This document shows positions 7,351-31,985 of a stretch of DNA of 64,000 nt, piece by piece. Origin of the DNA: Chiridota heheva (Eukaryota; Echinodermata; Holothuroidea; Apodida; Chiridotidae); NCBI GenBank assembly GCA_020152595.1, contig JAIGNY010001213.1:505001-569000 (forward strand), read 5' to 3'. Under the pieces are notes generated by a model. That model saw nothing but the letters and a program-made list of their open reading frames with translations, was not told the origin of the DNA and did not search any database. A program made the position numbers and the translations under genes. Numbering within the stretch: the stretch's first letter is position 1; every line of letters starts with the position of its first letter.

Positions 7351-9620
7351 AACAATATTACCATCATACATTTTCTACATGAGAGTTGTATACACTGATA
7401 GCAATAATGAGTTATACATTTGATTCATAACATGAATAAGAAATTGAGGATAATCAATGAAACTAATGCTTGACTTATTGACCCAGTTGTATCCGATTGG
7501 AAAGACGGGTAGCACCTGCACAATCCCTTACCTATAAGCCAACCTGACTCGCTAGCCCTGCATATCATGTTCCCTTAGGGGTGCATACTTCTGTTATTAC
7601 CACATCCATCCAAGCGCCCCTTCAAGCTATCTACAGATATCCTCGGGCACTGTGGAATCCTCCATGCTTTGGTAATGCCCGATATGACCAAATGTTCCTC
7701 ATCTCAACATGGTGGTATAACAGAAGTCTATTGCCCCTGGACACATTGTCACCCTATTTGGCACCTCTGGACTTAACCGGGTATCTGATCATCTGTTAGG
7801 GTGGCGCTAGACCCGTTTCACCTGTCGGCGCGCCACCGTGCCACAACAAAATGCGGTGCAAAAACTACATAATATACTACTCATGGCAGATCAAGGTCAC
7901 AATAACAATCCAATTTAAAACTAAACCAAAATTTGTCACATTTGATTTCATTATTTTGTTTTATAAGCTTGCAAAACTTGATATTGGATTCAATCAAATT
8001 GACATCAGTCAGTTGATTTTACAGATTTGCCAATGTTGCAAATATGGTAAATGTTACTAAAAATAGATTTAAGTTTCATTAGTAAAATTTGGATATTTGT
8101 AAATATAGTGTGATGAAATAAAAAAATTTAGAAAGATTCTTCAGCAAATTTGATTTGGGCTGATTTGAATAATTGTTCTCACAATCGTTACTTTAGATGG
8201 CATAGGGTCACAGAAAATAATGTAATTCAAAACTAAACCCATTTTGGTAGAATAGTTTCATCATCGTTTTTCATATAAGATTGCAAAATTTTGTTATTGC
8301 ATTGCATGAAATACATAAATCAATTGATGTTATCAAAACTACTGGTGAGTTTTGCTCTAATGAGAAGACAGAATGCACATCAGTATAACATCAAAGCGCT
8401 CAACTTCTCATCACTGTTGACACTTTCCATTAGTGCTGATGAAGCCCAAACCGCCAAAAGCAGTGCACTAAAACAATACCGGTCACTTTTCAACTGCTTT
8501 CCCCTTGATAGATTTGCTTGAAATTTTATACAATCGTCACGTTCGGTGAGACGCGAGGTTTAGATTTTGAAGAATTTCATGATTATTTTCTTGATATTAA
8601 GCAAAGTAAGTAGGTTTTTTGTCATTTGTTTGTGTTTAAACTACACTGCTTGTGTTTATAGTATGTGCATTTATAGGTATGTATGTCAATTTTTGTGTTT
8701 GTCTTGATTTATGGTGGTTATTGGAGATGATCAGATAAGTTATAGTCTATTTCTAGCTGGTTTAATTTGGTAAACTCTCTGGTTAAGTTGCAGGAAAACA
8801 GAGAAAAGTACATTGTATGAATAGAGAGGGGCTATTTCAATATGCAAGAACAAAAGATCAAAAGGGGGTATACAAGTATATAACATCCATTACATCTGCC
8901 TGAGCTGCATTTAACATACTTGAAAATCATTGCTTTATAAAACGATTTACATAAATGGAAGTAAATTATGCTTTGAAATAAGGTTGTGAGTTCATAGTTC
9001 AAGAGTTCATAAATATTGCTTAGTCTGTCTTGGGCATTATCCTACATATACACCAAAATCAGTGCATTCCGTATTTCCCTTTATCATAAAGACCAAAGAT
9101 TGATCTGCATCAAAGCAAGAAAAACAATATTTCATGTGTGATTTATTTTCTCGTACAGTTCGTAATGTAAATATCTCTTATCATCTAATTTGTGGGTGGT
9201 AAGAAAAGACATTTTTTGTGTGGCCTCTTGCATTTAAGAGTAAACTTGCATTTAACTACATGAACATCCCTGCAGATATTATTCCTAATTTGGTTATGGG
9301 GGAAGGAAATACTATTATTTGGACTTTTCAGCTTCATCAGTGTATGTTAGCTACATGTATATGCCACATGATTGAGGAACTTTATATGGTTAAAGGCCAG
9401 ATATCATGTTAGCATGGATACTGTGGAGATAAGACATTTATACAATACAATCCAACATTTGCGATTGTTCGAATCCCTAGTGTGATTCAGGAGGAAATCC
9501 CCAGTGGGGGTCCAGGTGGCAGCCCCTGAAGATCCTCAATTTGAGCATTTTCTAGGGTTAATTTTGGGCCTTTCTAAGACTCAGTTAAGAGGATTTTTGA
9601 GGACCATGAATGTTTTCTTC
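7351..9620. other. Non-coding sequence with diverged internal repeats
   Basis: No gene is supported. A stretch of ~110 bp at 7,905-8,020 is repeated with divergence at 8,217-8,335; both contain a TTxAAAACTAAACC core and a TTGCAAAA core. A 17-25 bp imperfect inverted repeat (ACTTCTGTTATTACCAC at 7,588 and its complement near 7,713-7,730) could form a ~170-bp hairpin in a locally GC-richer patch. Sequence at 9,470-9,610 recurs as a diverged direct repeat at 10,415-10,570. Confidence 0.5.
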
Positions 9621-9624
9621 ATCC

Positions 9625-10290
9625 AGAAAAAGTCACTATGTTATGCATAGGCCACACTTGAAATGGCAACCATAGGGTCATTAGTGCTAGGCTGCATAGG
9701 AAAAACCTCAATTTTGTTGATTTTTTCTTCTTATTTAAAAACTCTTGCATATTCGTTCCTGAAACTCTTAACAATTGCAAGATAAATTCATTAACAATCT
9801 AATCTATTCAAAACCGGCCTCCTTGATTGCAAAATTGGAGGAAATTTGAAACACTTTTTGAGGCACTAAAAATAAAAATCCAGTTGTTTTTATTACCAAA
9901 ATGAATCTAAATCACACTAGTTACATCTGATTACGAAGAAATATGAAATTTGGGATGAAAACAACCATCCAAAAATATTGTGATTGAATCATTTATCAAT
10001 GAGATATCTCAATGGTTTTGATAAAAGCTGCAAACAAATGGCTGTTTTAGTTCTACAAGGCGTCCAGAATAGCTTCAAATTATCCCCGATTTTAAACCGG
10101 AGGAAAGCTTTTAAATATTTTTTGTAGGGAATGGATTGTTAACAAAATTATCTTGTAATTGTTAAGAGTTTCATGACCAGGGATGCCAGAGTTATTAAAT
10201 AAGAAGACAAAATCATATTCAGCCTAACACTATGGTTGCCATTTCAAGTCTGGCCTATGCCGCAACCTCACTTTTCTTCAGGATTGATGT
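9625..10290. mobile_element. Foldback (long inverted repeat) element
   Basis: The arms at about 9,625-9,845 and 10,075-10,290 are inverted copies. The left arm has CTTGAAATGGCAACCATAG, CTTCTTATTTAA, AACTCTTAACAATT and CAAGATAA in that order. The right arm has the reverse complements in reverse order. The loop is about 230 bp. Arm divergence is substantial, so the copy is old. No ORF is present. The element lies between the two direct repeats at 9,470-9,610 and 10,415-10,570. Confidence 0.75.
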
Positions 10291-10414
10291 CCATTGGTGG
10301 AGGAAGGCAAGTGTTTGGAAAATCTAACAGCATGTGTAGAATCTTGGAATCGACTGGTGCAAGAATATTTTCAAAAATTGGGAGATAGTGAGTGGCCTGG
10401 AGTCTAGGGCTGTT

Positions 10415-10570
10415 AAAGGAATCCTAGTGGGGGCTTAGGGGCAAAGTTATAATAGAGGATCAGGGGACGAAGTCCTTGAAAATTCCTTAATTTTAGCATA
10501 ATCATAGGTAATTCTTGACATTTCTAAGACTTGGCAAGACTTTTGAGGACCCTGAAAGGTTTATAAGGAG
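10415..10570. repeat. Direct repeat of 9,470-9,610
   Basis: Shared words in the same order include CAGTGGGGG/TAGTGGGGG, TTTCTAAGACT and TTTTGAGGACC. Together with the left copy it brackets the foldback element. Confidence 0.55.
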
Positions 10571-10683
10571 TGGAAGGGCATACATTTCTGTAGGTACCAG
10601 CAGCCTTATAATGTCATTAGTCCTTATGCTATAATTTCATAGCTTACATCCTATTTACAACATTGATACTTAATACAATCTAT

Positions 10684-12111
10684 TCATTCACATGGCATAG
10701 CGAAGAAGCACTGCCTTTTTTCATTGCTTCTAATAAATAAACTTGCTAACTCCCTTGTCACAAGTTTGTCTGATTCCTCTTGGTCAATATTCACAAGCAT
10801 TGCATCGTTCAAGTGCTTCTGTGTTGGTGGAGCGCATATATGTTTGTATTGGCCTAAGAGTGGAAAAAGATCTTTCTCCTGAGATTGTAGTGACTGGTAG
10901 GGTGAGGAATATATGCAACAGGTGACTGGTAGGGTGAGGAATATATGCAACAGGTGACTGGTAGGGTGAGTGAGATTGTAGTGACTGGTAGGGTGAGGAA
11001 TATATGCAACAGGTGACTGGTAGGGTGAGGAATATATGCAACAGGTGACTGGTAGGGTGAGGAATATATGCAACAGGTGACTGGTAGGGTGAGGAATATA
11101 CGCATATGCAACAGGTGACTGGTAGGGTGAGGAATATACGCACCAGGTGACTGGTAGGGTGAGGAATATACGCACCAGGTGACTGGTAGGGTGAGGAATA
11201 TATGCACCAGGTGACTGGTAGGGTGAGGAATATACACACCAGGTGACTGGTAGGGTGAGGAATATGACGCATCAGGTGACTTGTAGGGTGAGGAATATAC
11301 GCAACAGGTGGCTAATAGGGTGAGGGTATATGACTGGTAGGGTGAGGAATATATGCACCAGGTGACATATGCAACAGGTGACAGGTGACTGGTATGGTGA
11401 GGGCAACAGGTGACTGGTAGGGTGAGGAATATATGCAACAGGTGACTGGTAGGGTGAGGAATATATGACTGGTAGGGTGAGGAATATAACAGGTGACTGG
11501 TAGGTGACTGTAGGGTGAGGAATATATGCAACAGGTGACTGGTAGGGTGAGGAATATATGCAACAGGTGACTGGTAGGGTGAGGAATATACGCAACAGGT
11601 GACTGGTAGGGTGGGCATATACGCAACAGGTGACTGATAGGGTGAGGAATATACGCAACAGGTGACTGATAGGGTGAGGAATATACGCAACAGCGTATCT
11701 ACTTCACTGAACATGATTGGTGCCATTGGAACAACAGAAAGCATGTCAGCCACAATACAAATTTTTGTCACCTTAAAGTGTTCCAGACTGCTTTGTGTCC
11801 TTGCAGCTTTCATTAGATCTTGGAGCATCTGTATCTGCCTTTCTAACTTCCTAGGGTTCAGGTCTTTAGCAAACATCTTCTCCACCGCAGCTGGACAAGT
11901 AAATGCTACCGTCGTTATCTGCATTGAATGCTTCAAAAAGCATCTTCTCCACAGCATGTGGAAGTTCATGTAACCTCTGATTAAACCTTTTCGTGATTTC
12001 ACCATTGATGCAATTCCAGTATTTTAAAGTAGAGATGACAGTGGTAAGATTTTGGGTTTTCATGCATACAGTATGTGGCAGGCTCCCGTCATCAATTTCC
12101 TTGGAGCACAT
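10684..12111 (-). pseudogene. hAT transposase C-terminal fragment split by a minisatellite
   Basis: The minus strand encodes the C-terminal part of a hAT-superfamily transposase of the ZMYM/P52rIPK-like type. Upstream blocks are ITKRFNQRLHELPHAVEKML (about 12,010-11,950), MLQDLMKAARTQSSLEHFKV and FSEVDTLLRIFLTL. The dimerisation domain then continues at 10,900 with LPVTTISGERSFSTLR and PIQTYMRSTNTEA. After a one-base frameshift it ends with LNDAMLVNIDQEESDKLVTR and a stop near 10,684. Between FSEVDTLLRIFLTL and LPVTTISGERSF lies an 804-bp 32-bp array that itself encodes LRIFLTLPVT over and over. The catalytic N-terminal half is absent and frameshifts are present, so it cannot transpose. Confidence 0.85.
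10890..11693. repeat. 32-bp minisatellite grown from hAT transposase codons
   Basis: There are about 25 copies, some truncated, of a 32-bp unit with core GTGACTGGTAGGGTGAGGAA, then TATACGCAACAG. On the minus strand one frame of the unit reads LRIFLTLPVT, the conserved start of the hAT dimerisation domain present once on each side. Because 32 is not a multiple of 3, three units give a 32-residue super-period, which explains the overlapping ORFs of up to 383 residues. Confidence 0.95.
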
Positions 12112-12690
12112 CTTTCTGGGATCAATTACAAAAGTGTGTGTGCGTGTGTGTTTGTGTATGTGGACGGAGGGGGAGAGTGTCTTTCCCCACCCTTGAGAGT
12201 GGGGGCAGTCACCCTGGTTTCCCCTCCTCCTTTTTCTATGCTACTGATTGAGTAAAGAAGCTCAATATTGCAAGCATTACATGGCAAGTAATGTAACTAT
12301 TAGAGGGTACATCACTGCAATGTTTGAGAGGGAGAGGGAAGCACATAGTCCCTCAATTGATGCTTTGTGTGCATAGACTCCCAATGTATTTTTAGGAGTT
12401 GAACTTAAATGTGATTGGTTTATATCCTCTTAACCCCCACCCCTTGATTTCACCACTGTGTGATCGCACTTATTAAAGGAATGTTTGTAAAGCAATGTAC
12501 TGTACATACCAAATTTGCCAAGATGGTTCTGCATGATGAAGATGATCGGTCCCAAGATACTCTTCTCAATGGACGGGAAGCAACAACCTGCTTGATCCAT
12601 TGTATTTCCATTTATCTTGTCATTTCTGTATTCTTATTTTTGTTTTCGTATCTAATTTCCTTGTTTTTTTGAATGTTTTTACAAAATTAG
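12112..12690. other. No gene seen; short GT-rich and pyrimidine-rich stretches
   Basis: This contains a short TG-rich run near 12,135-12,160 and otherwise unremarkable sequence. From about 12,460 it leads into a retroposon-like 3' tail. Confidence 0.4.
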
Positions 12691-12869: not shown

Positions 12870-13378
12870 TTGATTAGCTATGACTTGGAAACTACCATAC
12901 AAGTGATATTGACGTACTGTGATTTAGATTAGCTATGACTTGGAAAGTACCATACATGTGATATTGACGTACTGTGATTTAGATTAGCTACATGTATGAC
13001 TTGGAAACTACCGTACATGTGATATTGACGTACTGTGATTTAGATTAGCTATGACTTGGAAACTACCGTACATGTGATATTGACATACTGTGATTTAGAT
13101 TAGCTACATGTATGACTTGGAAAGTACCATACATGTGATATTGCCGTACTGTGATTTAGATTAGCTATGACTTGGAAACTACCGTACATGTGATATTGAC
13201 GTACTGTGATTTAGATTAGCTACATGTATGACTTGGAAAGTACCATACATGTGATATTGCCGTACTGTGATTTAGATTAGCTATGACTTGGAAACTACCG
13301 TACATGTGATATTGACATACTGTGATTTAGATTAGCTACATGTATGACTTGGAAACTACCGTACATGTGATATTGCCG
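12870..13378. repeat. 55/60-bp tandem repeat
   Basis: About nine copies of a unit with GATTAGCTATGACTTGGAAA, CTACCGTACATGTGATATTG and ACGTACTGTGATTTA. Alternate copies carry a 5-bp insertion (GCTACATGTATGAC in place of GCTATGAC), giving 55- and 60-bp forms. Confidence 0.93.
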
Positions 13379-13523
13379 TACTGTGATATTACCGTACATG
13401 TAATATTGGCGTATATGTGATATTGGCGTACATGTGATATTGGCGTACATGTGATATTGGCGTACATGTGATATTGCTGTACATGTGATATTGCCGTACA
13501 TGTGATATTGCCGTACATGTGAT
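13379..13523. repeat. 17-bp tandem repeat derived from the 55/60-bp unit
   Basis: GTGATATTGGCGTACAT repeats about eight times. It is a sub-segment of the longer unit to its left, so a short part of that unit was secondarily amplified. Confidence 0.9.
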
Positions 13524-14904: not shown

Positions 14905-17695
14905 AAAGTGTCATTGATTACATAATAGCATCTCAGAATTTGCTTGATAAGAGAGTAATTACTAATTTTATAGTTGGTGATGCAGTAGATTCGCCACATT
15001 CACCACTAACCTTTGATTTTAATTATGTAAATAGTGTTCACCAAACCAATGTTAGTGGTGAACGACCACAGTCTATTGATTGTGTTCCTCTAATGAAAAC
15101 AGTCTGGTACAAAGAAAGGCAAAATGAATATTCTGAAAAGTGGGGGAATAATGATACATTGGACACAATAGAGGAAATCATGGGCTTTTTGGGAAAATAA
15201 CAATCCTGAAGTAGCGGTGACACAAATAAATGATTTACTAAAAAGGATCTATGGTGTGAGATGTATTAGGGGAAACGCAAATCCTCCGAAGCCGCAAAAT
15301 TGGTTTGATCAAGATTGTTTTGAATTTAAATCAAGGGTTAGGAAAGCACTTAAAGAACATAAAATACAATGTAGCAATGAAAGTCGGGAACGTTTTTGTG
15401 ATATAAAGAAAAGTACAATAAATTCATTACATACAAGAAAACTCAATTCATGGAAAATAAAACAAAGGAGCTTCTTACTTTAGCAAAACAAAAAGACAAT
15501 CAGAAGTTTTGGGCTTTCTTTAAAGCTCTCACAAACAAGGATACAAATGATATTCCAGCTATTGAATGGTTTCAATACTTTACATCTGTTTTTGAAGTTA
15601 ACGATTCTACAGTATATTTTGATATTTTATATTCCTCATTGGAAGTTTCTGATGATATTTTGGATGTCAACATTACAATTAATGAAGTTGAGAAAGCAAT
15701 CAATTCACAAAAACAAGGCAAAGCTTGTGGTATCGGTGGTGTTCAAATTGAAATGATCAAAAATTCACCTGAGGCGCTGAGGCATGCTATACATGCATTG
15801 TTTGACAGAATTCTTTGTACTGGCAAATTTCCCAGTGCTTGGCAAGTTGGTAATTAGTCCTGTATTCAAGAAAGGGGTTAAAGACTTACCAAGTAGTTAT
15901 CTGCCTATTACACTATTGTGTGCTTTAGGCAAAGTATTTACAAAAGTTTTATGTAGTAGACTATGTGATTGGCTCTCAGATCATAATATCCTTTTATTTG
16001 CTCAGGCAGGTTTTCGAGCAGGGTTCTCTAGGATTAATAATTTCACACTGCCATTTCTAAAGCACTGAGTAAACCACGTGGTAAACTTTATGCCACTTTT
16101 GTTGATTTTAAAGCCGCATTTGATAACATCAATCGCAGTATTTTATTCAAGAAACTTTATAATATGGGAATGAGGGGTAAATTCTATGAGATACTTATAT
16201 CAATGTATAGTAATAATGAGTCATGTGTGAAGACAAAGGACGGTCTTACCCCAAAATTTGATTGTGCGAGAGGTCTGAGACAAGGTTGTAATCTATCCCC
16301 GTACTTATTTTTACTTTATATCAGTGATATTGAAAAGCGATTGAAGTCCACAAACACCCGCGGAATTCATATATGTTGTCTTTTTTATGCAGATGAGTCG
16401 TTATCTTGTCAGAAAATGTTTATTCCCTGCAAAGTTTACTGAATGCTTTCTAAGATTATTGTGGAGAGGATGATTTGACTGTAAGCTCAGATAAAACAAA
16501 AGTAATGGTTTTTAGAAAGGGTGGACACATTGCAAGAGGTGAACGTTTTTATTTCAAAGGCAAGATTTACTTAGAATTAAATTTGACGCCAAAAGGAGTA
16601 TGGTCAAAATCCCAAGATCAACAGAGTTAAGGTTGCTTTGTTCAATTTTAAGAAAATTTTGTCTCGAACTATTGAATTACCTGTAAGTAATATCCTTCAA
16701 ATTTTTGATTATAAGATAATGCCTATTCTAACATACGGTTCTGAGTTATGGGGTATCACCCCTTCATGAAAGTACAATAAGAGTTTACAATTCGTTTCAT
16801 AAATATGTTTTAGGTTTACCATCAAATGCCATAAATATTGTAGCTCTAGGAGAGCTGGGTCGCTTTTCCTTTAAAAGTCAAACAATACTAAAGCAAATAA
16901 CGTATTGGAAAAGACTTCTTATTCTTGATAAAGACAGGTATTAGACTCATTGTTATGTAGAACAAAGAGTATTGAAAAACAAAGGAGTGCTTTAATAGGG
17001 ACTGTGTGTTAAAAATATTTTGTATGGAACTGGATTTGGTAATGTTTGGGAAGGGCAGGGAGAAGGGATTACTTACACATTTTTATGATGATTTTAAGCA
17101 GTGAGTTTTTAAGATAGATAGACAGAACTGGTTGAGTGATATTGAGTTTGTGACATAGATAGACAGAACTGGTTGAGTGATATTAAATCTACAAGTTCTT
17201 TGCGTTGTTTACACAATTTAAAACAGAAAGTTTGGCAGAGCCATACCTATTTAATGTTTTTAGACTTGAAAAGCTGGTCTCCAAAATCAGATGTGCTTGC
17301 CTTGAAATTGAAGTCAATGAAGGCCGTTATTGTAATATAACTTATAAACAGAGGTTTTGTCAGGTTTGCAATTTAAAAAAAGTTGGAGATAAATATCATT
17401 TTCTCTTAATTTGTCCATCCCTTTCTGAAATCCTCTGTAAATTTATCCCAAAATGTTTCTTTCAACCAACAACTAAAACAAAATGTCATACTTTATTAGC
17501 AGCTAATTCTTAATACTTATTTTTGCAGTTATCACACTTTATTTTACACGCAATGAAAGCAAGACCTTTGTTTCTTTCTCTTTGATTATTGTTTGTTGTA
17601 AGAACCTCAATCATGTACCATTTAATCTATGGTTTATGTTTGTGACAAAGGCCAGATGGCGTAGAGCACTGTAATAAATTGTATTGTATTGTATT
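14905..17695 (+). mobile_element. L2/CR1-like LINE, 5'-truncated, decayed
   Basis: Frames on the plus strand give, in order: the end of the endonuclease domain (SVIDYIIASQN, with SPHSPLTFDF in the place of the SDH motif); a WFDQDCFEFKSRVRKALKEH linker; KFWAFFKALTNK; ISPVFKKGVKDLPSSYLPIT; AQAGFRAGFS; LYATFVDFKAAFDNINRSIL (RT motif A); LRQGCNLSPYLFLLYISDIE; CLFYADESL in place of the FADD box; TKVMVFRKGGH; MPILTYGSELWGI; and a C-terminal Cys/His knuckle (FCQVCNLKKVGDKYHFLLIC). Several frameshifts and stops make it dead. It ends at AATAAATTGTATTGTATTG, a short-repeat tail as in CR1/L2 elements. The family also occurs at 44,425-48,370. Confidence 0.85.
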
Positions 17696-18170: not shown

Positions 18171-18800
18171 AGTTACTATTCTTGATTTCTTATAGAAACT
18201 GATAAATATTCTTTTGAAGGTGGTCACTGAGTGGGGATCATTGGTAAGATCCCCAAAATCTTTGTCAGAGTTAGCAACTCTTCTTCAAAAAAAATGCAAC
18301 AGAAATAAAAATGATAATTGACACACTGTACTGTAAGAAAGTAAGTTCTGCTGCTTGTGCATGTGTCACAGAGTTCCATTTGAATTCCTGAAAATTGAAA
18401 GAGCTACCTGATCGTAAATCCTTGATTTCTTATTCATTTTAAAAGGTAATGTTATCGCAACAAGCTGTAAAAGATTTTGCGAAAGTCTTCTGTGGACCAC
18501 GAGATGTCAGTTTTGGACAATTTGTCACAGTGTTCTTGACAAATTATGCCCGAAGAGTGAGAAAGAGCCTTCTTTCCTTTACAGTTTGATATGGAAAACA
18601 TATCAGCTGGTGTGTTGATGATTGCGGTGGTTGGTATAGACGGTGAATCTAAGGTGCATTAGGGGAAAAGTAGACATTTTTTTGGAGTGGTATATTCTAC
18701 CATGGTGATACCCATTACCCCTCTCCCTCCCATATTCACATACTGTACCACATTCATGTTGGCAAACTTCATAAATTAGACTTTCTTTTTCATCTTCTAG
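18171..18800. other. Sequence upstream of CCDC142-like coding exon; no other gene seen
   Basis: No coding exon is recognisable. A pyrimidine-rich tract followed by CTTCTAG ends at 18,800 and is a plausible 3' splice site for the exon that carries the start codon. The promoter and first exon are therefore probably upstream and not identified. A short palindrome GGGGATC...GATCCCC lies at 18,233-18,257. Confidence 0.45.
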
Positions 18801-18826
18801 GTAGAAGGAAACAAGAAAGCGCAACA

Positions 18827-20510
18827 ATGGAGTTTGCCACTGCAGCAGATCTCCCCATCAGAAGACTTCCTCCTCTACAAATAATTCACGGGCAGCCCGT
18901 GTTGGACTTAGATACCCCGCCTCCATCTGCCAGTACCTCTCCAGATGCCACCCAGAGAGACACCTTCAGATTTGCCCACAGGTCCTCTTTGCCCCAGTTT
19001 TCAAACGAGGAAATAAATCACAGTCTTCACATCCTTCAGCAGTGTTTTGAGGAGTTACGAACTGGTCAACACCCATGTTTACGGTCAAGAGGGCGGGTCT
19101 CATCGGCCTTTGGTCACAACAAACATAGCATTCTTCTTGCCAAGCTCTACAGCCATCTTTGTTCCCAGAAAGTAAAACAAGCGCAGTTATTATTTGTGCG
19201 GGATTGTGCGACACGTATCTCACAAATGAAGGAGTTTGTTAATTCGATTCAAGGACTCGTGCAGGAGGAGGAAAGAACTTTTTGTAATTTTTTGACTGGA
19301 AATGTATCGGAACCTCACACTAGGCTTGATTACCTTCCTGTGTTGTGTGAGGACTTGAGCAGGCACATGAATCACTTACCGTCAATACATCACCGACTCC
19401 ACACTGACAAATGGCTGCAACCTGCTCTGTCTCAGTATTTTGGAAGTATGCATTATGTAGAGGACATATTAAGACAGTTACAACTCAGTGCAATATCCTG
19501 GATGCAATTGTTGATCTCCATCGGACTCAGGGTGTTTTCATACTTTCATGTCAGTATGATGTCTCCGGAACTTCTGCAGGCCATTGTGTACGGCATTGAA
19601 GATTTCAATCGTCTTCATAAACAATTCAGATTAGAATTGAATCTGCGCAAGTACGGTTTTTCTCAGAAACCACGTTGCATGAAACCCCCAAATTCTTTTC
19701 TGCACAATCCAAATAAATTTTTATATTTGCAATCTTTTCCATTTGAAATTATCCTCAGTACCATTGCCAAGAGTCGTTCAAGGATTACCGCTTTTCGAAC
19801 GTTCCATTTTCTTCAAACCAATGCTAAAGTATTAAATTTTGCTAAAGAAATGCATCCCACCTTTAACTGGAAGAAGACTTTTTTCTCGGGTAGTGATTCG
19901 GTGTACGACACCTCAAGCCATTTCCATTTCATGATGGGAAATTCTGCTGCAATGTCTAGGGCAGCTGAAACGTTGATTTGTTTCTCAGAAGGGGAATCCC
20001 CTTTAGGAGAAACAGAGACCTCGGAGGAAGAATTCATAGTTAAATTTCTGACAGCAGCTGCAACATCCTCAGGGCTGCTTCAAAAACTCAAACTCCAGAA
20101 ATCCATTTCATCTTCCAGAGAAGGGGCTGACCTGGATCCCATATCATTGCAAGGGGCTGACCTGGATCCCATATCACTGCAGTTAGATCCAGACAAGAAC
20201 GATATCAAGGCAACTTCCACAAAATCACAAAACTCGGCTGGTACTACTTCCAAACGCAGTTCCAGATTAAAACGGGACTCTGGCCTGAGAAAATCTGTCC
20301 GTTGGGGAGATTCTTTAAATTCACAATTAAGGAGTCATCTATTTGGATTGTATCTTACAAGTTTCTGGGGACAGTTTACGCAGGATTTCTTGGGGTACCT
20401 ACTGGATCCGTCCATGGAACAGAAGGGTGGGGGTGAGGAGTTCATCGGTGCTATCTACCTGTGGCATGACCAACTCTTGTATCATGTAACATGTGCAATG
20501 GAAAAGACAG
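18827..20510 (+). CDS. CCDC142: CCDC142-like protein, large 5' coding exon
   Basis: 561 complete codons open from an ATG in good context (CAACAATGG), running to the donor CAG|GTAATG at 20,511 (phase 1). Open frame past the donor is intron read-through. I recognise the family from conserved blocks in the vertebrate order: LLFVRDCATRISQMK (RDCA at residues 125-128), SISWMQL-type helix around 225, YGIEDFNRLHKQF near 263, SFPFEIILSTIAKSRSRITA near 303-322, and LYLTSFWGQFTQDFL near 508. A low-complexity Ser/Lys-rich linker (about 425-490) contains an exact 10-residue tandem duplication, GADLDPISLQ twice. The protein is alpha-helical with no signal peptide or membrane segment. Vertebrate CCDC142 is about 750 residues, so the C-terminal part must come from later exons. 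Molecular function of the family is not established. Orthology is inference from remembered motifs. Confidence 0.82.
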
Positions 20511-20924
20511 GTAATGTCTCATACAGTATCTTATCATTTAACATCTCAAATGTTCTTGTTCATCATTTTGTAAAAGGCATATGGATGTGAAGAGAAAGCG
20601 CCAGTTAAATTGCTTTCAAAACTATTAAAAACAATGATAGTAACAAAACATTTCATTAAAATCAGTTGAAAATTGACTATTTAACAGCGTCTTAAAAATC
20701 TCTGGTATCGATATTCAAATTTGGGATGTACTGTACTACAGGGCAACCTAGGTAATTTCTTTTGTGAATCCCTTCTTTTTGATTAGCCATCACAATTCTC
20801 TGAATTGGTGTAGCAAAATTTTTTTGAGTATTTACCACACTTTAACCCATTTCTATTCTAGCAGGAATAGACTCCACTATCAGTTTTAATAACTGAGATT
20901 TAGGAAAGATTTATAGATGGAATT

Positions 20925-23900
20925 AAGAAGATTTGATTTGTTCCCCAGTCATACATCACACATTAAGAAGATTTGATTTGTTCCCAGTCATACATCACAC
21001 ATTAAGAAGATTTGATTTGTTCCCAGTCATACATCACACATTAAGAAGATTTAATTTGTTCCCCAGCCATAGTCATCACACATTAAGAAGATTTGATTTG
21101 TTCCCCAGTTATACATCACACATTCAGAAGATTTGATTTGTTCCCAGTCATACATCACACATTAAGAAGATTTGATTTGTTCCCCTGTCATACATCACAC
21201 AATATGAAGATTTGATTTGTTCCCAGTCATACATCACACATTAAGAAGATTTAATTTGTTCCCAGTCATACATCACACATTAAGAAGATTTGATTTGTTC
21301 CCAGTCATACATCACACATTAAGAAGATTTAATTTGTTCCCCAGCCATACTTAACACATTAAGAAGGTTTGATTTGTTCCCCAGTTATACATCACACATT
21401 CAGAAGATTTGATTTGTTCCCTGTCATACATCACACATTAAGAAGATTTGATTTGTTCCCCAGTCATACATCACACATTAAGAAGATTTGATTTGTTCCC
21501 AGTCATACATCACACATTAAGAAGATTTGATTTGTTCCCAGTCATACATCACACATTAAGAAGATTTGATTTGTTCCCAGTCATACATCACACATTAAGA
21601 AGATTTGATTTGTTCCCAGTCATACATCACACATTAAGAAGATTTGATTTGTTCCCAGTCATACATCACACATTAAGAAGATTTGATTTGTTCCCCAGTC
21701 ATACATCACACATTAAGAAGATTTGATTTGTTCCCAGTCATACATCACACATTAAGAAGATTTGATTTGTTCCCAGTCATACATCACACATTAAGAAGAT
21801 TTGATTTGTTCCCAGTCATACATCACACATTAAGAAGATTTGATTTGTTCCCAGTCATACATCACACATTAAGAAGATTTGATTTGTTCCCAGTCATACA
21901 TCACACATTAAGAAGATTTGATTTGTTCCATCACACATTCAGTCATACATCACACATTAAGAAGATTTGATTTGTTCCCAGTCATACATCACACATTAAG
22001 AAGATTTGATTTGTTCCCAGTCATACATCACACATTAAGAAGATTTGATTTGTTCCCAGTCATACATCACACATTAAGAAGATTTGATTTGTTCCCAGTC
22101 ATACATCACACATTAAGAAGATTTGATTTGTTCCCAGTCATACATCACATTTGATTTGTTCCCCAGTCATACATCACACATTAAGAAGATTTGATTTGTT
22201 CCCAGTCATACATCACACATTAAGAAGATTTGATTTGTTCCCAGTCATACATCACACATTAAGAAGATTTGATTTGTTCCCAGTCATACATCACACATTA
22301 AGAAGATTTGATTTGTTCCCAGTCATACATCACACATTAAGAAGATTTGATTTGTTCCCAGTCATACATCACACATTAAGAAGATTTGATTTGTTCCCCA
22401 GTCATACATCACACATTAAGTCATACATCACACATTAAGATTTGATTTGTTCCCAGTCATACATCACACATTAAGAAGATTTGATTTGTTCCCAGTCATA
22501 CATCACACATTAAGAAGATTTGATTTGTTCCCAGTCATACATCACACATTAAGAAGATTTGATTTGTTCCCAGTCATACATCACACATTAAGAAGATTTG
22601 ATTTGTTCCCTGTCATACATCACACAATAAGAAGGTTTGATTTGTTCCCAGTTATACATCACACATTAAGAAGATTTGATTTGTTCCCAGTCATACATCA
22701 CACATTAAGAAGATTTGATTTGTCCCCAGTCATACATCACACATTAAGAAGATTTGATTTGTTCCCAGTTATACATCACACATTAAGAAGATTTGATTTG
22801 TTCCCAGTCATACATCACACATTAAGAAGATTTGATTTGTTCCCAGTCATACATCACACATTAAGAAGATTTGATTTGTTCCCCAGTCATACATCACACA
22901 TTAAGAAGATTTGATTTGTTCCCCAGTCATACATCACCCAGTCATACATCACACATTAAGAAGATTTGATTTGTTCCCCAGTCATACATCACACATTAAG
23001 AAGATTTGATTTGTTCCCAGTCATACATCACACATTAAGAAGATTTGATTTGTTCCCAGTCATACATCACACATTAAGAAGATTTGATTTGTTCCCAGTC
23101 ATACATCACACATTAAGAAGATTTGATTTGTTTGTACATCACACATTAAGAAGATTTGATTTGTTCCCAGTCATACATCACACATTAAGAAGATTTGATT
23201 TGTTCCCAGTCATACATCACACATTTAAGAAGATTTGATTTGTTCCCAGTCATACATCACACATTAAGAAGATTTGATTTGTTCCCCAGTCATACATCAC
23301 ACATTAAGAAGATTTGATTTGTTCCCAGTTATACATCACACTTTAAAAAGATTTGATTTGTTCCCAGTCATACATCACACATTAAGAAGATTTGATTTGT
23401 TCCCAGTCATGCATCACACATTAAGAGGATTTGATTTGTTCCCGGTCATACATCACACATTAAGAAGATTTGATTTGTTCCCCTGTCATACATCACACAT
23501 TAAGAAGATTTGATTTGTTCCCCTGTTATACATCACACATTAAGAAGATTTGATTTGTTCCCAGTCATACATCACACATTAAGAAGATTTGATTTGTTCC
23601 CAGTCATACATCACACATTAAGAAGATTTGATTTGTTCCCAGTCATACATCACACATTAAGAAGATTTGATTTGTTCCCTGTCATACATCACACATTAAG
23701 AAGATTTGATTTGTTCCCCTGTCATACATCACACATTAAGAAGATTTGATTTGTTCCCAGTCATACATCACACATTAAGAAGATTTGATTTGTTCCCCAG
23801 TCATACATCACACATTAAGAAGATTTGATTTGTTCCCAGTCATACATCACACATTAAGAAGATTTGATTTGTTCCCAGTCATACATCACACATTAAGAAG

Positions 23901-25802
23901 ATTTGATTTGTTCCCAGTCATACATCACACATTAAGAAGATTTGATTTGTTCCCCTGTCATACATCACACATTAAGAAGATTTGATTTGTTCCCCTGTCA
24001 TACATCACACATTAAGAAGATTTGATTTGTTCCCCAGTCATACATCACACATTAAGAAGATTTGATTTGTTCCCAGTCATACATCACACATTAAGAAGAT
24101 TTGATTTGTTACCCTGTCATACATCACACATTAAGAAGATTTGATTTGTTCCCAGTCATACATCACACATTAAGAAGATTTGATTTGTTCCCAGTCATAC
24201 ATCACACATTAAGAAGATTTGATTTGTTCCCAGTCATACATCACACATTAAGAAGATTTGATTTGTTCCCAGTCATACATCACACATTAAGAAGATTTGA
24301 TTTGTTCCCAGTCATACATCACACATTAAGAAGATTTGATTTGTTCCCAGTCATACATCACACATTAAGAAGATTTGATTTGTTCCCAGTCATACATCAC
24401 ACATTAAGAAGATTTGATTTGTTCCCCAGTCATACATCACACATTAAGAAGATTTGATTTGTTCCCAGTCATACATCACACATTAAGAAGATTTGATTTG
24501 TTCCCAGTCATACATCACACATTAAGAAGATTTGATTTGTTCCCAGTCATACATCACACATTAAGAAGATTTGATTTGTTCCCAGTCATACATCACACAT
24601 TAAGAAGATTTGATTTGTTCAGTCATACATCACACATTAAGAAGATTTGATTTGTTCCCCAGTCATACATCACACATTAAGAAGATTTGATTTGTTCCCA
24701 GTCATACATCACACATTAAGAAGATTTGATTTGTTCCCCTGTCATACATCACACATTAAGAAGATTTGATTTGTTCCCAGTCATACATCACACATTAAGA
24801 AGATTTGATTTGTTCCCAGTCATACATCACACATTAAGAAGATTTGATTTGTTCCCAGTCATACATCACACATTAAGAAGATTTGATTTGTTCCCCAGTC
24901 ATACATCACACATTAAAAGATTTGATTTGTTCCCAGTCATACATCACACATTAAGAAGATTTGATTTGTTCCCAGTCATACATCACACATTAAGAAGATT
25001 TGATTTGTTCCCAGTCATACATCACACATTAAGAAGATTTGATTTGTTCCCAGTCATACATCACACATTAAGAAGATTTGATTTGTTCCCTGTCATACAT
25101 CACACATTAAGAAGATTTGATTTGTTCCCAGTCATACATCACACATTAAGAAGATTTGATTTGTTCCCAGTCATACATCACACATTAAGCAGATTTGATT
25201 TGTTCCCAGTCATACATCACACATTAAGAAGATTTGATTTGTTCCCAGTCATACATCACAGATTAAGAAGATTCGATTTGTTCCCCAGTCACACATCACA
25301 CATTAAGAAGATTTGATTTGTTCCCCTGTTATACATCACACATTAAGAAGATTTGATTTGTTCCCCTGTTATACATCACACATTAAGAAGATTTGATTTG
25401 TTCCCCTGTTATACATCACACATTAAGAAGATTTGATTTGTTCCCTGTCATACATCACACAATAAGAAGATTTGATTTGTTTCCCAGTCATACATCACAC
25501 ATTAAGCAGATTTGATTTGTTCCCCAGTTATACATCACACATTAAGAAGATTTGATTTGTTTCCCAGTCATACATCACACATTAAGCAGATTTGATTTGT
25601 TCCCCAGTCATACATCACACATTAAGAAGATTTGATTTGTTCCCAGTTATACATCACACATTAAGAAGGTTTGATTTGTTCCCAGTTATACATCACACAT
25701 TAAGAAGATTTAATTTGTTCCCCAGTCATACATCACACATTAAGAAGATTTGATTTGTTCCCAGTTATACATCACACATTAAGAAGACTGGATTTGTTTC
25801 CT
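20925..25802. repeat. 39/40-bp satellite array, left block
   Basis: About 124 units of TTAAGAAGATTTGATTTGTT followed by CCCAGTCATACATCACACA (39 bp). Variants with an extra C (CCCCAG or CCCCTG) are 40 bp and shift the frame. Runs of 39-bp units therefore give open frames with a 13-residue period (RRFDLFPVIHHTL), each broken at a 40-bp unit. Local higher-order periods of 157 bp (three 39 plus one 40) and about 236 bp are visible. Sequence identity between units is very high. Confidence 0.98.
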
Positions 25803-26377
25803 CCCTTACAAAAAAACCTGTGTCAGCTGTTCCAATTTCATGCATGAACACGCATGCAAACCCAGGGTAATCCCTGGTATTTGCACTAGTTTGACACTCT
25901 TTCTCCCTCATTCCACAAAAAACAGTGTCTGCCACCCTTTTACACAGAAAACATGGAAACTACACTTCGGAGGTTTTCCTGTGTCCAACAGGACAATGTG
26001 TGTCATACAGGAAACAAGAGAAAACCTGTGTCATAAGTACCAGACAAAGTGTTTACACCATAAAATATTTCTTCATGTAACAGCCCATTCAACTGGTCCA
26101 AAATTGAAAGTTTGCCACGTTTTGCCACATTTTTTGACACAGGTTGGAACACGTTTTACCACACTTTTTCCTGTCTTGTTAAAACACTTATTTTAACACA
26201 TTTACATGCATGTCAGCCACACAGGTGGGATTACCTGTTAGACACACAGGGGATTAGTTCCAATTTCATGCATTGTCATGTGTGTCACTTTTGTTTGCCA
26301 CATGTCAAGTCTTTTGTCTGCCACATGTGTTCCTGCAGGAACACAGACAAGGTTTGACACACTATTTTTTGTAAGGG
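25803..26377. mobile_element. 575-bp inverted-repeat element inside the satellite
   Basis: The ends are inverted: CCCTTACAAAAAAACCTGTG on the left, and on the right the complement of CCCTTACAAAAAATAGTGTG. They are flanked by CT on both sides. Joining the flanks gives GGATTTGTTTCCTGTCATAC, which is exactly an existing array unit at about 29,840, so the insertion site is clear. The interior has no transposase; it is rich in TGTGTCA and GCCACA words, and TTCCAATTTCATGCAT occurs twice (25,830 and 26,260). It is a non-autonomous DNA element of unknown superfamily. Confidence 0.85.
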
Positions 26378-29300
26378 CTGTCATACATCACACATTAAGA
26401 AGATTTGATTTGTTCCCCTGTCATACATCACACATTAAGAAGATTTAATTTGTTCCCCAGTCATACATCACACATTAAGAAGATTTGATTTGTTCCCCAG
26501 TCATACATCACATATTAAGAAGGTTTGATTTGTTCCCAGTCATACATCACACATTAAGAAGATTTGATTTGTTCCCCTGTCATACATCACACATTAAGAA
26601 GATTTGATTTGTTCCCAGTTATACATCACACTTTAAAAAGATTTGATTTGTTCCCTGTCACACATCACACATTAAGAAGATTTGATTTGTTCCCAGTCAT
26701 ACATCACACATTAAGAAGATTTAATTTGTTCCCCAGTCATACATCACACATTAAGAAGATTTGATTTGTTCCCCAGTCATACATCACACATTAAGAAGGT
26801 TTGATTTGTTCCCCAGTCATACATCACACATTAAGAAGATTTGATTTGTTCCCTGTCACACATCACACATTAAGAAGATTCGATTTGTTCCCAGTCATAC
26901 ATCACACATTAAGAAGATTTGATTTGTTCCCTGTCACACATCACACATTAAGAAGATTCGATTTGTTCCCAGTTATACATCACAGATTAAGAAGATTTGA
27001 TTTGTTCCCCAGTCATACATCACACATTAAGAAGATTTGATTTGTTCCCTGTCATACATCACACATTAAGAACATTTGATTTGTTCCCCTGTCATACATC
27101 ACACATTAAGAAGGTTTGATTTGTTCCCCAGTCATACATCACACATTAAGAAGGTTTGATTTGTTCCCCTGTTATACATCACAGATTAAGAACATTTGAT
27201 TTGTTCCCTGTCATACATCACACATTAAGAACATTTGATTTGTTCCCCTGTCATACATCACACATTAAGAAGATTTGATTTGTTCCCAGTCATACATCAC
27301 ACATTAAGAAGATTTGATTTGTTTCCCAGTTATACATCACACATTAAGAAGATTTGATTTGTTCCCAGTCATACATCACACATTAAGAAGATTTGATTTG
27401 TTCCCCAGTCATACATCACACATTAAGAAGATTTGATTTGTTCCCAGTCATACATCACACATTAAGAAGGTTTGATTTGTTCCCCAGTCATACATCACAC
27501 ATTAAGAAGATTTGATTTGTTCCCCTGTCATACATCACACATTAAGAAGATTTGATTTGTTCCCCTGTTATACATCACACATTAAGAAGATTTGATTTGT
27601 TCCCCAGTCATACATCACACATTATGAAGATTTGATTTGTTCCCCAGTCATACATCACACATAAAGAAGATTTGATATGTTCCCCAATCAAATCACACCT
27701 TAAGAAGATTTGATTTGTTCCCCTGTCATACATCACACATTAAGAAGATTTGATTTGTTTCCTGTCATACATCACACATTAAGAAGGTTTGATTTGTTCC
27801 CAGTCATACATCACACATTAAGAAGATTTGATTTGTTCCCCTGTCATACATCACACATTAAGAAGATTTGATTTGTTCCCAGTTATACATCACACATTAA
27901 GAAGATTTGATTTGTTCCCCTGTCATACATCACACATTAAGAAGATTTGATTTGTTCCCAGTTATACATCACACATTAAGAAGATTTGATTTGTTCCCTG
28001 TCATACATCACACATTAAGAAGATTTGATTTGTTCCCAGTCATACATCACACATTAAGAAGATTTGATTTGTTCCCAGTCATACATCACACATTAAGAAG
28101 ATTTGATTTGTTCCCCAGTCATACATCACACATTAAGAAGATTTGATTTGTTCCCCTGTCATACATCACACATTAAGAAGATTTGATTTGTTCCCAGTCA
28201 TACATCACACATTAAGAAGATTTGATTTGTTCCCCAGTCATACATCACACATTAAGAAGATTTGATTTGTTCCCAGTTATACATCACACATTAAGAAGAT
28301 TTGATTTGTTCCCAGTCATACATCACACATTAAGAAGATTTGATTTGTTCCCAGTCATACATCACACATTAAGAAGATTTGATTTGTTCCCCTGTCATAC
28401 ATCACACATTAAGAAGATTTGATTTGTTCCCCTGTCATACATCACACATTAAGAAGATTTGATTTGTTCCCCAGTCATACATCACACATTAAGAAGATTT
28501 GATTTGTTCCCAGTCATACATCACACATTAAGAAGATTTGATTTGTTCCCCTGTCATACATCACACATTAAGAAGATTTGATTTGTTCCCAGTTATACAT
28601 CACACATTAAGAAGATTTGATTTGTTCCCAGTCATACATCACACATTAAGAAGATTTGATTTGTTCCCAGTCATACATCACACATTAAGAAGATTTGATT
28701 TGTTCCCCTGTCATACATCACACATTAAGAAGATTTGATTTGTTTCCACTTATACATCACACATTAAAAAGATTTGATTTGTTCCCAGTCATACATCACA
28801 CATTAAGAAGATTTGATTTGTTCCCCAGTCATACATCACACATTAAGAAGATTCGATTTGTTCCCCTGTCATACATCACATATTAAGAAGATTTGATTTG
28901 TTCCCCTGTCATACATCACTTATTAAGAAGATTTGATTTGTTCCCAGTCATACATCACACATTAAGAAGATTTGATTTGTTCCCAGTCATACATCACACA
29001 TTATGAAGATTTGATTTGTTCCCCAGTCATACATCACACGTTAAGAAGATTTGATTTGTTCCCCTGTCATACATCACACATTAAGAAGATTTGATTTGTT
29101 CCCCAGTCATACATCACACATTAAGAAGATTTGATTTGTTCCCCTGTCATACATCACACATTAAGAAGATTTGATTTGTTCCCCAGTCATACATCACACA
29201 TTAAGAAGATTTGATTTGTTCCCCTGTCATACATCACTTATTAAGAAGATTTGATTTGTTCCCAGTCATACATCACACATTAAGAAGATTTGATTTGTTC

Positions 29301-31985
29301 CCTGTCACACATCACACATTAAGAAGATTCGATTTGTTCCCAGTTATACATCACACATTAAGCAGATTTGATTTGTTCCCCAGTCATACATCACACATTA
29401 AGAAGGTTTGATTTGTTCCCAGTCATACATCACACTTTAAAAAGATTTGATTTGTTCCCTGTCATACATCACACATTAAGAAGATTCGATTTGTTCCCAG
29501 TTATACATCACACATTAAGAAGATTTGATTTGTTCCCCAGTCATACATCACACATTAAGAAGGTTTGATTTGTTCCCAGTTATACATCACAGATTAAGAA
29601 GATTTGATTTGTTCCCAGTCATACATCACACATTAAGAAGATTTGATTTGTTCCCAGTCATACATCACACATTAAGAAGATTTGATTTGTTCCCAGTTAT
29701 ACATCACACGTTAAGAAGATTTGATTTGTTCCCCTGTCATACATCACACATTAAGAAGATTTGATTTGTTCCCCTGTCATACATCACACATTAAGAAGAC
29801 TGGATTTGTTCCCAGTTATACATCACACATTAAGAAGACTGGATTTGTTTCCTGTCATACATCACACATTAAAAAGATTTGATTTGTTCCCAGTTATACA
29901 TCACACGTTAAGAAGATTTGATTTGTTCCCCTGTCACACATCACACATTAAGAAGATTCGATTTGTTCCCAGTCATACATCACACATTAAGAAGATTTGA
30001 TTTGTTCCCAGTTATACATCACACATTAAGAAGATTTGATTTGTTCCCCAGTCATACATCACACATTAAGAAGATTTGATTTGTTCCCAGTCATACATCA
30101 CACATTAAGAAGATTTGATTTGTTCCCTGTCATACATCACACATTAAGAAGATTTGATTTGTTCCCAGTCATACATCACACATTAAGAAGATTTGATTTG
30201 TTCCCAGTCATACATCACACATTAAGAAGATTTGATTTGTTCCCAGTCATACATCACACATTAAGAAGATTTGATTTGTTCCCCTGTCATACATCACACA
30301 TTAAGAAGATTTGATTTGTCCCCTGTCATACATCACACATTAAGAAGATTTGATTTGTTCCCAGTCATACATCACACATTAAGAAGATTTGATTTGTTCC
30401 CAGTCATACATCACACATTAAGAAGATTTGATTTGTTCCCCAGTTATACATCACACATTAAGAAGATTTGATTTGTTCCCCAGTTATACATCACACATTA
30501 AGAAGATTTGATTTGTTCCCAGTCATACATCACACATTAAGAAGATTTGATTTGTTCCCTGTCATACATCACACAATAAGAAGATTTGATTTGTTCCCAG
30601 TCATACATCACAGATTAAGAAGATTTGATTTGTTTGTTCACACATTAAGAAGATTTGATTTTTGTTCCCAGTCATACATCACACATTAAGAAGATTTGAT
30701 TTGTTCCCAGTCATACATCACACATTAAGAAGATTTGATTTGTTCCCCTGTTATACATCACACATTAAAAAGATTTGATTTGTTCCCCAGTCATACATCA
30801 CACATTAAGAAGATTTGATTTGTTCCCAGTTATACATCACACATTAAGAAGATTTGATTTGTTCCCAGTCATACATCACACATTAAGAAGATTTGATTTG
30901 TTCCCAGTTATACATCACACATTAAGAAGATTTGATTTGTTCCCAGTCATACATCACACATTAAGAAGATTTGATTTGTTCCCCAGTCATACATCACACA
31001 TTAAGAAGATTTGATTTTTTCCCAGTCACACATCACACATTAAGAAGATTTGATTTGTTCCCGGTCATACATCACACATTAAGAAGATTTGATTTGTTCC
31101 CAGTCATACATCACACATTAAGAAGATTTGATTTGTTCCCCTGTTATACATCACACATTAAGAAGATTTGATTTGTTCCCCAGTCATACATCACACATTA
31201 AGAAGGTTTGATTTGTTCCCCAGTCATACATCACACATTAAAAAGATTTGATTTGTTCCCCAGTCATACATCACACATTAAGAAGATTTGATTTGTTCCC
31301 AGTCATACATCACACATTAAGCAGATTTGATTTGTTCCCCTGCTATACATCACACATTAAAAAGATTTGATTTGTTTCCAGTCATACATCACACGTTAAG
31401 AAGATTTGATTTGTTCCCCTGTCATACATCACACATTAAGAGGATTTGATTTGTTCCCCTGTCATACATCACACATTAAGAAGGTTTGATTTGTTCAGTC
31501 ATACATCACACATTAAGAAGATTTGATTTGTTCCCACTTATACATCACACATTAAGAAGATTTGATTTGTTCCCAGTTATACATCACAGATTAAGAAGAT
31601 TTGATTTGTTCCCAGTTATACATCACACATTAAGAAGATTTGATTTGTTCCCAGTCATACATCACACATTAAGAAGATTTGATTTGTTCCCAGTTATACA
31701 TCACAGATTAAGAAGATTTGATTTGTTCCCAGTTATACATCACACATTAAGAAGATTTGATTTGTTCCCAGTCATACATCACACATTAAGAAGATTTGAT
31801 TTGTTCCCAGTCATACATCACACATTAAGAAGATTTGATTTGTTCCCTGTCATACATCACACATTAAGAAGATTTGATTTGTTCCCAGTCATACATCACA
31901 CATTAAGAAGATTTGATTTGTTCCCAGTCATACATCACACATTAAGAAGATTTGATTTGTTCCCTGTCATACATCACACATTTAA
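26378..31985. repeat. 39/40-bp satellite array, right block
   Basis: About 143 further units of the same satellite. More variants occur here (GGATTTGTTTCC, CATTTGATTTG, CACATTATGAAG, GTTATAC for GTCATAC). 157-bp spacing of frame-breaking units is clear at 29,211, 29,368 and 29,525. The array ends at ACACATTTAACATAAATT. Confidence 0.98.

Follow-up and report, generated by a model that had tools for sequence, protein, structure and literature searches.

A minisatellite in the holothuroid Chiridota heheva was found to lie within the decayed transposase of a hAT element, on the minus strand of the 64,000-nucleotide stretch of genomic DNA that was analysed (hereafter the window), and the parent of this array is the hAT element's own codons. 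The array occupies positions 10890–11693, and sister copies of the element elsewhere in the genome retain the same stretch as one unit. Below, we describe the array and its host element, the unexpanded copies that identify its parent, and the junctions from which its founding and later growth can be read.

The array and its host element

TRF analysis of the window placed a 32-bp unit in 26.0 copies at 10890–11693 (score 917), lying, like the transposase, on the minus strand, and head-to-tail units of this size lie within the range of approximately 10–100 bp that characterises minisatellites. Alignment of the units showed that several interior ones are truncated, and that both the first (5') unit, at 11662–11693, and the last (3') unit, at 10890–10921, are complete at 32 bp, with the latter continuing into unique 3' flank. 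In the sense of the transposase the unit reads CTGTTGCATATATTCCTCACCCTACCAGTCAC, and one of its frames translates to LLHIFLTLPVT. The original prediction gave the unit product as LRIFLTLPVT; this is correct for part of the array, as unit position 8 is G (LRIF) in 9 of 27 aligned rows, but A (LHIF) is commoner, at 16 of 27, with the remaining two rows gapped or partial. It also drew the repeat from 10684 to 11700, a range that contains the array but includes the 3' coding flank as well. The units differ from one another by 6.5% on average, their consensus departs from the family sequence at three unit positions (4, 8, and 14), and the first unit carries TTG and TATCAG where most family copies have GTG and TACCAG. 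As 32 cannot be divided by three, the transposase frame is matched by no more than one unit in three, and the array therefore breaks it.

Upstream of the array on the minus strand, positions 11694–12113 comprise the 5' coding flank of the decayed transposase (...MFSEVDTL), which is homologous to family copies. This is preceded by the 5' terminal part of the host copy (12114–12246), assigned from its terminal motif and family alignments. The 5' terminal sequence of hAT elements is of the CAGTG type, and such a terminus is present at 12246, where the element begins with CAGTAGCATAG (family version CAGTGGCGTAG): six family copies align to the 5' terminal part with scores of 77–96, against no more than 52 in 100 shuffles each, and the alignment of one copy (L041) begins exactly at the terminus of the window copy. 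Of 38 oriented loci, 22 also have a CAGTGG-type motif with at most one mismatch no more than 3.5 kb upstream, a count made without a chance control.

Downstream, the 3' coding flank (10684–10889) reads ...LPVTTISGERSFSTL (...TTISGERSFSTLRPIQTYMRSTNTEALERC) on the minus strand, followed by a frameshift that, by comparison with the sister copy L010, falls between TNTEALERC and NDAMLVNIDQEESDKL. The array thus lies between upstream and downstream transposase coding sequence, just as had been predicted from the window. This 3' side together with array units matches the Pfam domain Dimer_Tnp_hAT (PF05699; E 7.7e-5, 22.9 bits, cut-off 21.4), as does the sister copy L018 (E 7.4e-7). These matches enter the 84-position profile at positions 35 (window) and 33 (L018), which places the codons of the unit near the middle of the domain model; the original prediction had put them at its start. 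The final catalytic acidic residue of hAT transposases belongs to the GER/SER motif, and we take this motif to fall after the array, which would then split the enzyme just ahead of it. When a fragment of a sister copy was compared with solved structures, no match was obtained at E values up to 1.

The rest of the host copy that could be delimited by family alignments is a 3' non-coding part (9475–10683) that contains a nested insertion of about 606 bp (~9650–10255), as several family copies align to 10256 and resume at 9649. This insertion has inverted repeats (9645–9678 with 10227–10260, and 9718–9813 with 10120–10215) and resembles a fold-back element or small DNA transposon. By eye, the 3' ends of the family read ...TTCCTACGCCTATG, the inverse of the 5' end except for the last bases; the 3' terminus of the window copy itself was looked for and not found. 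Both end motifs are present at 22 of 38 loci, and no pair of octamers with zero or one mismatch was identified at these as an 8-bp target-site duplication. One octamer pair with a single mismatch is present in L039 but flanks a different, 247-bp element, and the octamer of the window recurs with one mismatch at 9378, where no terminus adjoins it.

Several other features were noted in the window. Two abutting arrays with 55/116-bp and 17-bp units (CCGTACATGTGATATTG) are located at 12872–13523, and since the 55-bp unit includes the 17-bp one, one of the arrays probably grew from the other. A fragment of a reverse transcriptase (Pfam RVT_1, E 6.7e-17) is found at 16041–16442. An open frame of 638 codons (18674–20590), for which no Pfam match above cut-off was obtained, carries an in-frame 30-bp tandem duplication (20121–20181; GADLDPISLQ twice), and approximately 330 bp past this frame begins an 11-kb array in which a 39-bp unit recurs about 280 times (20922–31982).

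Unexpanded sister copies identify the parent

The assembly searched was the window's own, which comprises 1,100,099,931 bases in 3,744 contigs. Using positions 10600–11800 as the query and scoring 40 of 55 candidates, we obtained 47 match rows, corresponding to the window, at least 39 other places, and seven second pieces. Anchor searches on either side of the site, allowing up to three mismatches, returned 11 places each, window included, and the only places that they added to the 39 were on C219 and C921 (L058 and L059), for a total of 41 other family copies examined. In 11 of these 41 copies (L009, L010, L014, L015, L016, L018, L025, L027, L030, L041, and L059) both sides of the site are kept with one unit and no array, and indels within or beside the site are no larger than about 10 bp; the family sequence, assembled by eye, reads AAGCTGGTGCGTATATACCTCACCCTACCAGTCACTACAGCC. 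The array thus occupies a homologous position within the element at which its sisters are single, as is expected of a tandem repeat derived from a transposable element (TE). Since the same 32 bp occurs once at the same place in sister copies, the identity between unit and transposase is not a matter of chance. These data bear out the central claim of the original prediction, that the array was born from hAT transposase codons, and the unexpanded copies that it anticipated were recovered from the same assembly.

The remaining copies are less complete. Four (L019, L023, L024, and L026) retain the 3' half of the site only, as a single copy, three (L011, L032, and L058) have less than this left, and L047 keeps only the left side, while others have lost the site together with some adjoining codons; L036 and L046 contain long runs of N in which something may be overlooked. 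Relatives without the 32 bp had been named in advance as evidence against a hAT parent, and in many copies the sequence is indeed partly or wholly missing; the loss, however, extends to adjoining codons on at least one side, which marks them as internally deleted copies. The other contrary observation named, an array widespread without transposase, was not made: a 56-base two-unit pattern, searched genome-wide with up to three mismatches, gave ten matches, all inside the window array, although such a search would miss more diverged arrays.

A protein search of the genome, with 150 of 852 candidates scored, recovered open frames from many distant hAT relatives. The rows checked by eye, which are part of the 150, have spans too tight for an array, but partial matches would rank low in this search, from which no count is therefore drawn. 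Distant hAT-like matches on C2587, C2288, and C3267 are situated in open frames of 1,965–2,041 codons, far beyond the usual length of a transposase, and are possibly fused or domesticated genes. Loose arrays with a period of 20–22 (or 41) and of the type AAATTTTCGGGAAATTTTCTTC were observed at ten of the family loci (L016, L021, L024, L027, L029, L030, L031, L035, L036, and L038); these arrays, which lie near many hAT copies, are perhaps part of another dispersed repeat.

In alignments of at least 300 bp, the flank of the window array differs from every sister copy by at least 15%. Compared with the 6.5% difference among array units, this makes the array look younger than the split of its host from the sister copies, although homogenisation within the array would look alike.

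Founding junction and growth of the array

Two models of minisatellite initiation are set out in PMC3389668: one in which the founding unit is flanked by direct repeats of 5–10 bp (Haber-Louis type) and one that leaves an incomplete terminal unit (slipped-strand type, ref. 14 of that paper). In the window, the sequence flanking the array on either side has 0 bp in common with the opposite end of the unit, and the same measure in unexpanded copies is 0–1 bp (8 of 11 copies tested). With 0 bp of microhomology in place of flanking repeats, and with both end units complete at 32 bp, neither published model fits. Small tandem duplications of less than 100 bp with near-blunt junctions have been obtained experimentally in mouse and human cells, where they arise via fill-in and end joining (PMC8355091). 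Two duplications in the window, of 32 and 91 bp, are both of this size with 0-bp junctions, and from these junctions we infer that both represent the filling in of a break followed by end joining.

The 91-bp duplication is the better preserved of the two. Its blocks, at 10880–10970 and 10971–11061, are identical at 91 of 91 positions, which suggests a recent event, and there is 0 bp of leftward identity at the junction. The block starts in unique transposase flank, and therefore 10 bp of 3' flank (TGAGATTGTA on the plus strand), which form the first 10 bp of the block at 10880, now also lie as a stray copy inside the array, within the block at 10971–11061. As one breakpoint is thus located outside the array, this junction cannot have arisen by exchange among the units. 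The block has TGAG at both its start and its end, and slippage on this 4-bp match would yield a duplication of 87 bp, not 91. This duplication is of the same type as the founding step and is better evidence for it, because it is unmutated.

Growth between these two events has left a different record. Among the 24 near-full units, neighbours are 95.3% identical, compared with 93.5% (sd 0.5) in shuffled order, a value reached in 0 of 5000 shuffles; the excess includes a contribution from the 91-bp block. That neighbours are more alike than shuffled units indicates that the array grew at least partly by local copying, and the truncated interior units show that there were losses as well as growth. 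Unit position 4 carries the family's G in five interior units and T in both end units, so the order of events within the array was not simple, and the G could be either ancestral or a back mutation. Hairpin-driven slippage found no support, as two array units and the unexpanded site, on both strands, fold no better than shuffled sequences (four folds, z -1.12 to 0.64).

Taken together, we propose the following history. A hAT DNA transposon copy first inserted and then decayed, and within its transposase remnant a 32-bp stretch, whose single-copy parent is seen in the sister elements, underwent tandem duplication. This founding step most likely involved a staggered break, the overhangs of which were filled in and joined near-bluntly, as suggested by the 0-bp microhomology and the complete end units. 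Local copying between adjacent units then enlarged the pair to 26, with small internal losses, as the neighbour identities support, and ordinary slippage or exchange between units best explains the growth that took place between the founding and 91-bp events. The later growth included at least one recent step, a perfect 91-bp tandem duplication with a 0-bp junction, for which the pathway would be as proposed above. We regard it as probable that this account is correct as a whole, namely that the array is a non-coding relic consisting of tandemly duplicated hAT codons, founded by fill-in and end joining, enlarged by local growth, and without a selected function. Against it, the founding junction is old and both of its edges may have mutated, 0 bp is a single observation for each event, and template switching, or slippage without homology, would leave identical junctions.

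The standard model of minisatellite origin, the account given in PMC6947457 and PMC3389668, finds some agreement here in that some interior truncations resemble, by eye, losses between short shared words. However, the unit edges, with 0 bp shared in the window and 0–1 bp in the unexpanded copies (8 of 11 tested), the untruncated end units, and a 91-bp duplication joined at 0 bp despite a 4-bp match at hand all speak against it, and we consider it improbable for this array. About as improbable in our estimation is that these hAT codons are a hot spot prone to tandem duplication, at which arrays recur in different copies. L013 has a different array at the same codons, with an 18-bp unit (TACCTCACCATGTACCAA) in 4.1 readable copies; this copy keeps the right side of the site, its array runs into a stretch of N, and its two-unit pattern occurs at one place in the genome. 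In L012, where both sides are kept, an insertion of 18 bp is similar to the adjoining sequence, and an upstream duplication contains the site a second time; L025 and L047 share a similar insertion on the 10-bp scale just upstream of the site. Arrays are abundant in this genome, however, with 71 in 218 kb of readable sequence surrounding 38 family loci (TRF, period of at least 10, at least 2.5 copies), that of L013 among them, and a hot spot would consequently have to show a strong excess at this position. With the window excluded, ~0.86 kb of aligned site contains one array (that of L013) and ~7.3 kb of aligned body contains none, a difference that is not significant after the fact. When insertions of at least 8 bp relative to three reference copies were compared between the site and the 250 bp that follow it, the duplications in L012 and L025 gave local p values of about 0.1 and 0.04 and were no longer seen against one or two of these references. 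As the result is reference-dependent and not significant, we claim no hot spot, and the observations at these codons are suggestive only. An array in L039 coincides with the computed site position, but it is part of another short element, beyond the hAT match. A broader reading, in which homology-independent tandem duplication both founds minisatellites and keeps enlarging them, with these hAT codons as a possible repeated birthplace, draws on the 0-bp junctions at the 32-bp and 91-bp steps and on the second array at the same codons; we hold it to be unlikely.

Two further explanations were weighed against a non-coding relic. If the array were translated as a repeat protein and maintained by selection, the 389-codon frame that spans its whole length would be accounted for. 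This frame is open because all three sense frames of the unit are free of stops, and the chance of 32 codons without a stop is approximately 1 in 5 by simple arithmetic with equal codons. Moreover, the reading frame shifts at every 32-bp unit, interior units have truncations and 1-bp changes, the transposase is frameshifted after the array, and the 389-aa read-through product has no hAT match in Pfam. This explanation thus seems to us the least credible of all, and we infer that the array encodes no selected function. It is also very unlikely, if somewhat less so, that the length or order of the array is an artefact of assembly; while tandem arrays are error-prone and a single assembly was used, the differences among units are patterned, their truncations are unique, and continuous hAT sequence flanks both sides.

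Relation to known TE-derived repeats

The origin of minisatellites from TEs is well documented (PMC3389668 and the reviews PMC6947457 and PMC9659126). The first of these reports 7,276 TE-derived tandem repeats in human, and the remark made with the original prediction, that the parent of a minisatellite is rarely identifiable this directly, is therefore not supported. As in the window, these human repeats are pieces of TEs duplicated in tandem; according to the same text, 300 and 159 of them fit the two initiation models and 6,817 fit neither, having, like the window array, no flanking direct repeats and no incomplete end unit. Most of the 6,817 have only two units, whereas the window array has 26, derives from hAT coding sequence, and could be compared base by base with single-copy sisters. 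In the migratory locust, PMC4935994 describes tandem repeats with a relationship to hAT elements, as well as repeats related to Gypsy and Polinton coding sequence. The two hAT-related locust satellites match outside the coding sequence and form satellite families, in contrast to the window array, which lies in coding sequence and was found at one locus. Satellites related to CR1 ORF II, LINE-1 ORF II, and GAG are described in PMC9659126 and likewise have the coding part of a TE as their source, but they stem from retroelements and constitute satellite DNA families, while here a DNA transposon gave rise to a 32-bp unit at a single locus. With regard to mechanism, the duplications of less than 100 bp attributed in PMC8355091 to fill-in by CST/Pol alpha-primase and end joining are similar in size to those in the window, and most of those in wild-type cells are independent of microhomology. 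Those were Cas9-nick experiments in mouse and human cells, whereas the events in the window are natural and their pathway is deduced from junctions.

In a full-text literature search, within the library and terms used, we found no minisatellite reported to derive from hAT coding sequence. While TE-born minisatellites as such are known, what is new here is an array born from hAT coding sequence, the birth of which is documented with unusual completeness. The first duplication step of minisatellites was described in 2012 as poorly understood (PMC3389668). At the locus reported here, the parent, the founding junction, and a later growth junction stand side by side with unexpanded sister copies as controls, so that models of initiation can be checked base by base, and this genome, rich in arrays as it is, would probably yield many more cases of the kind.
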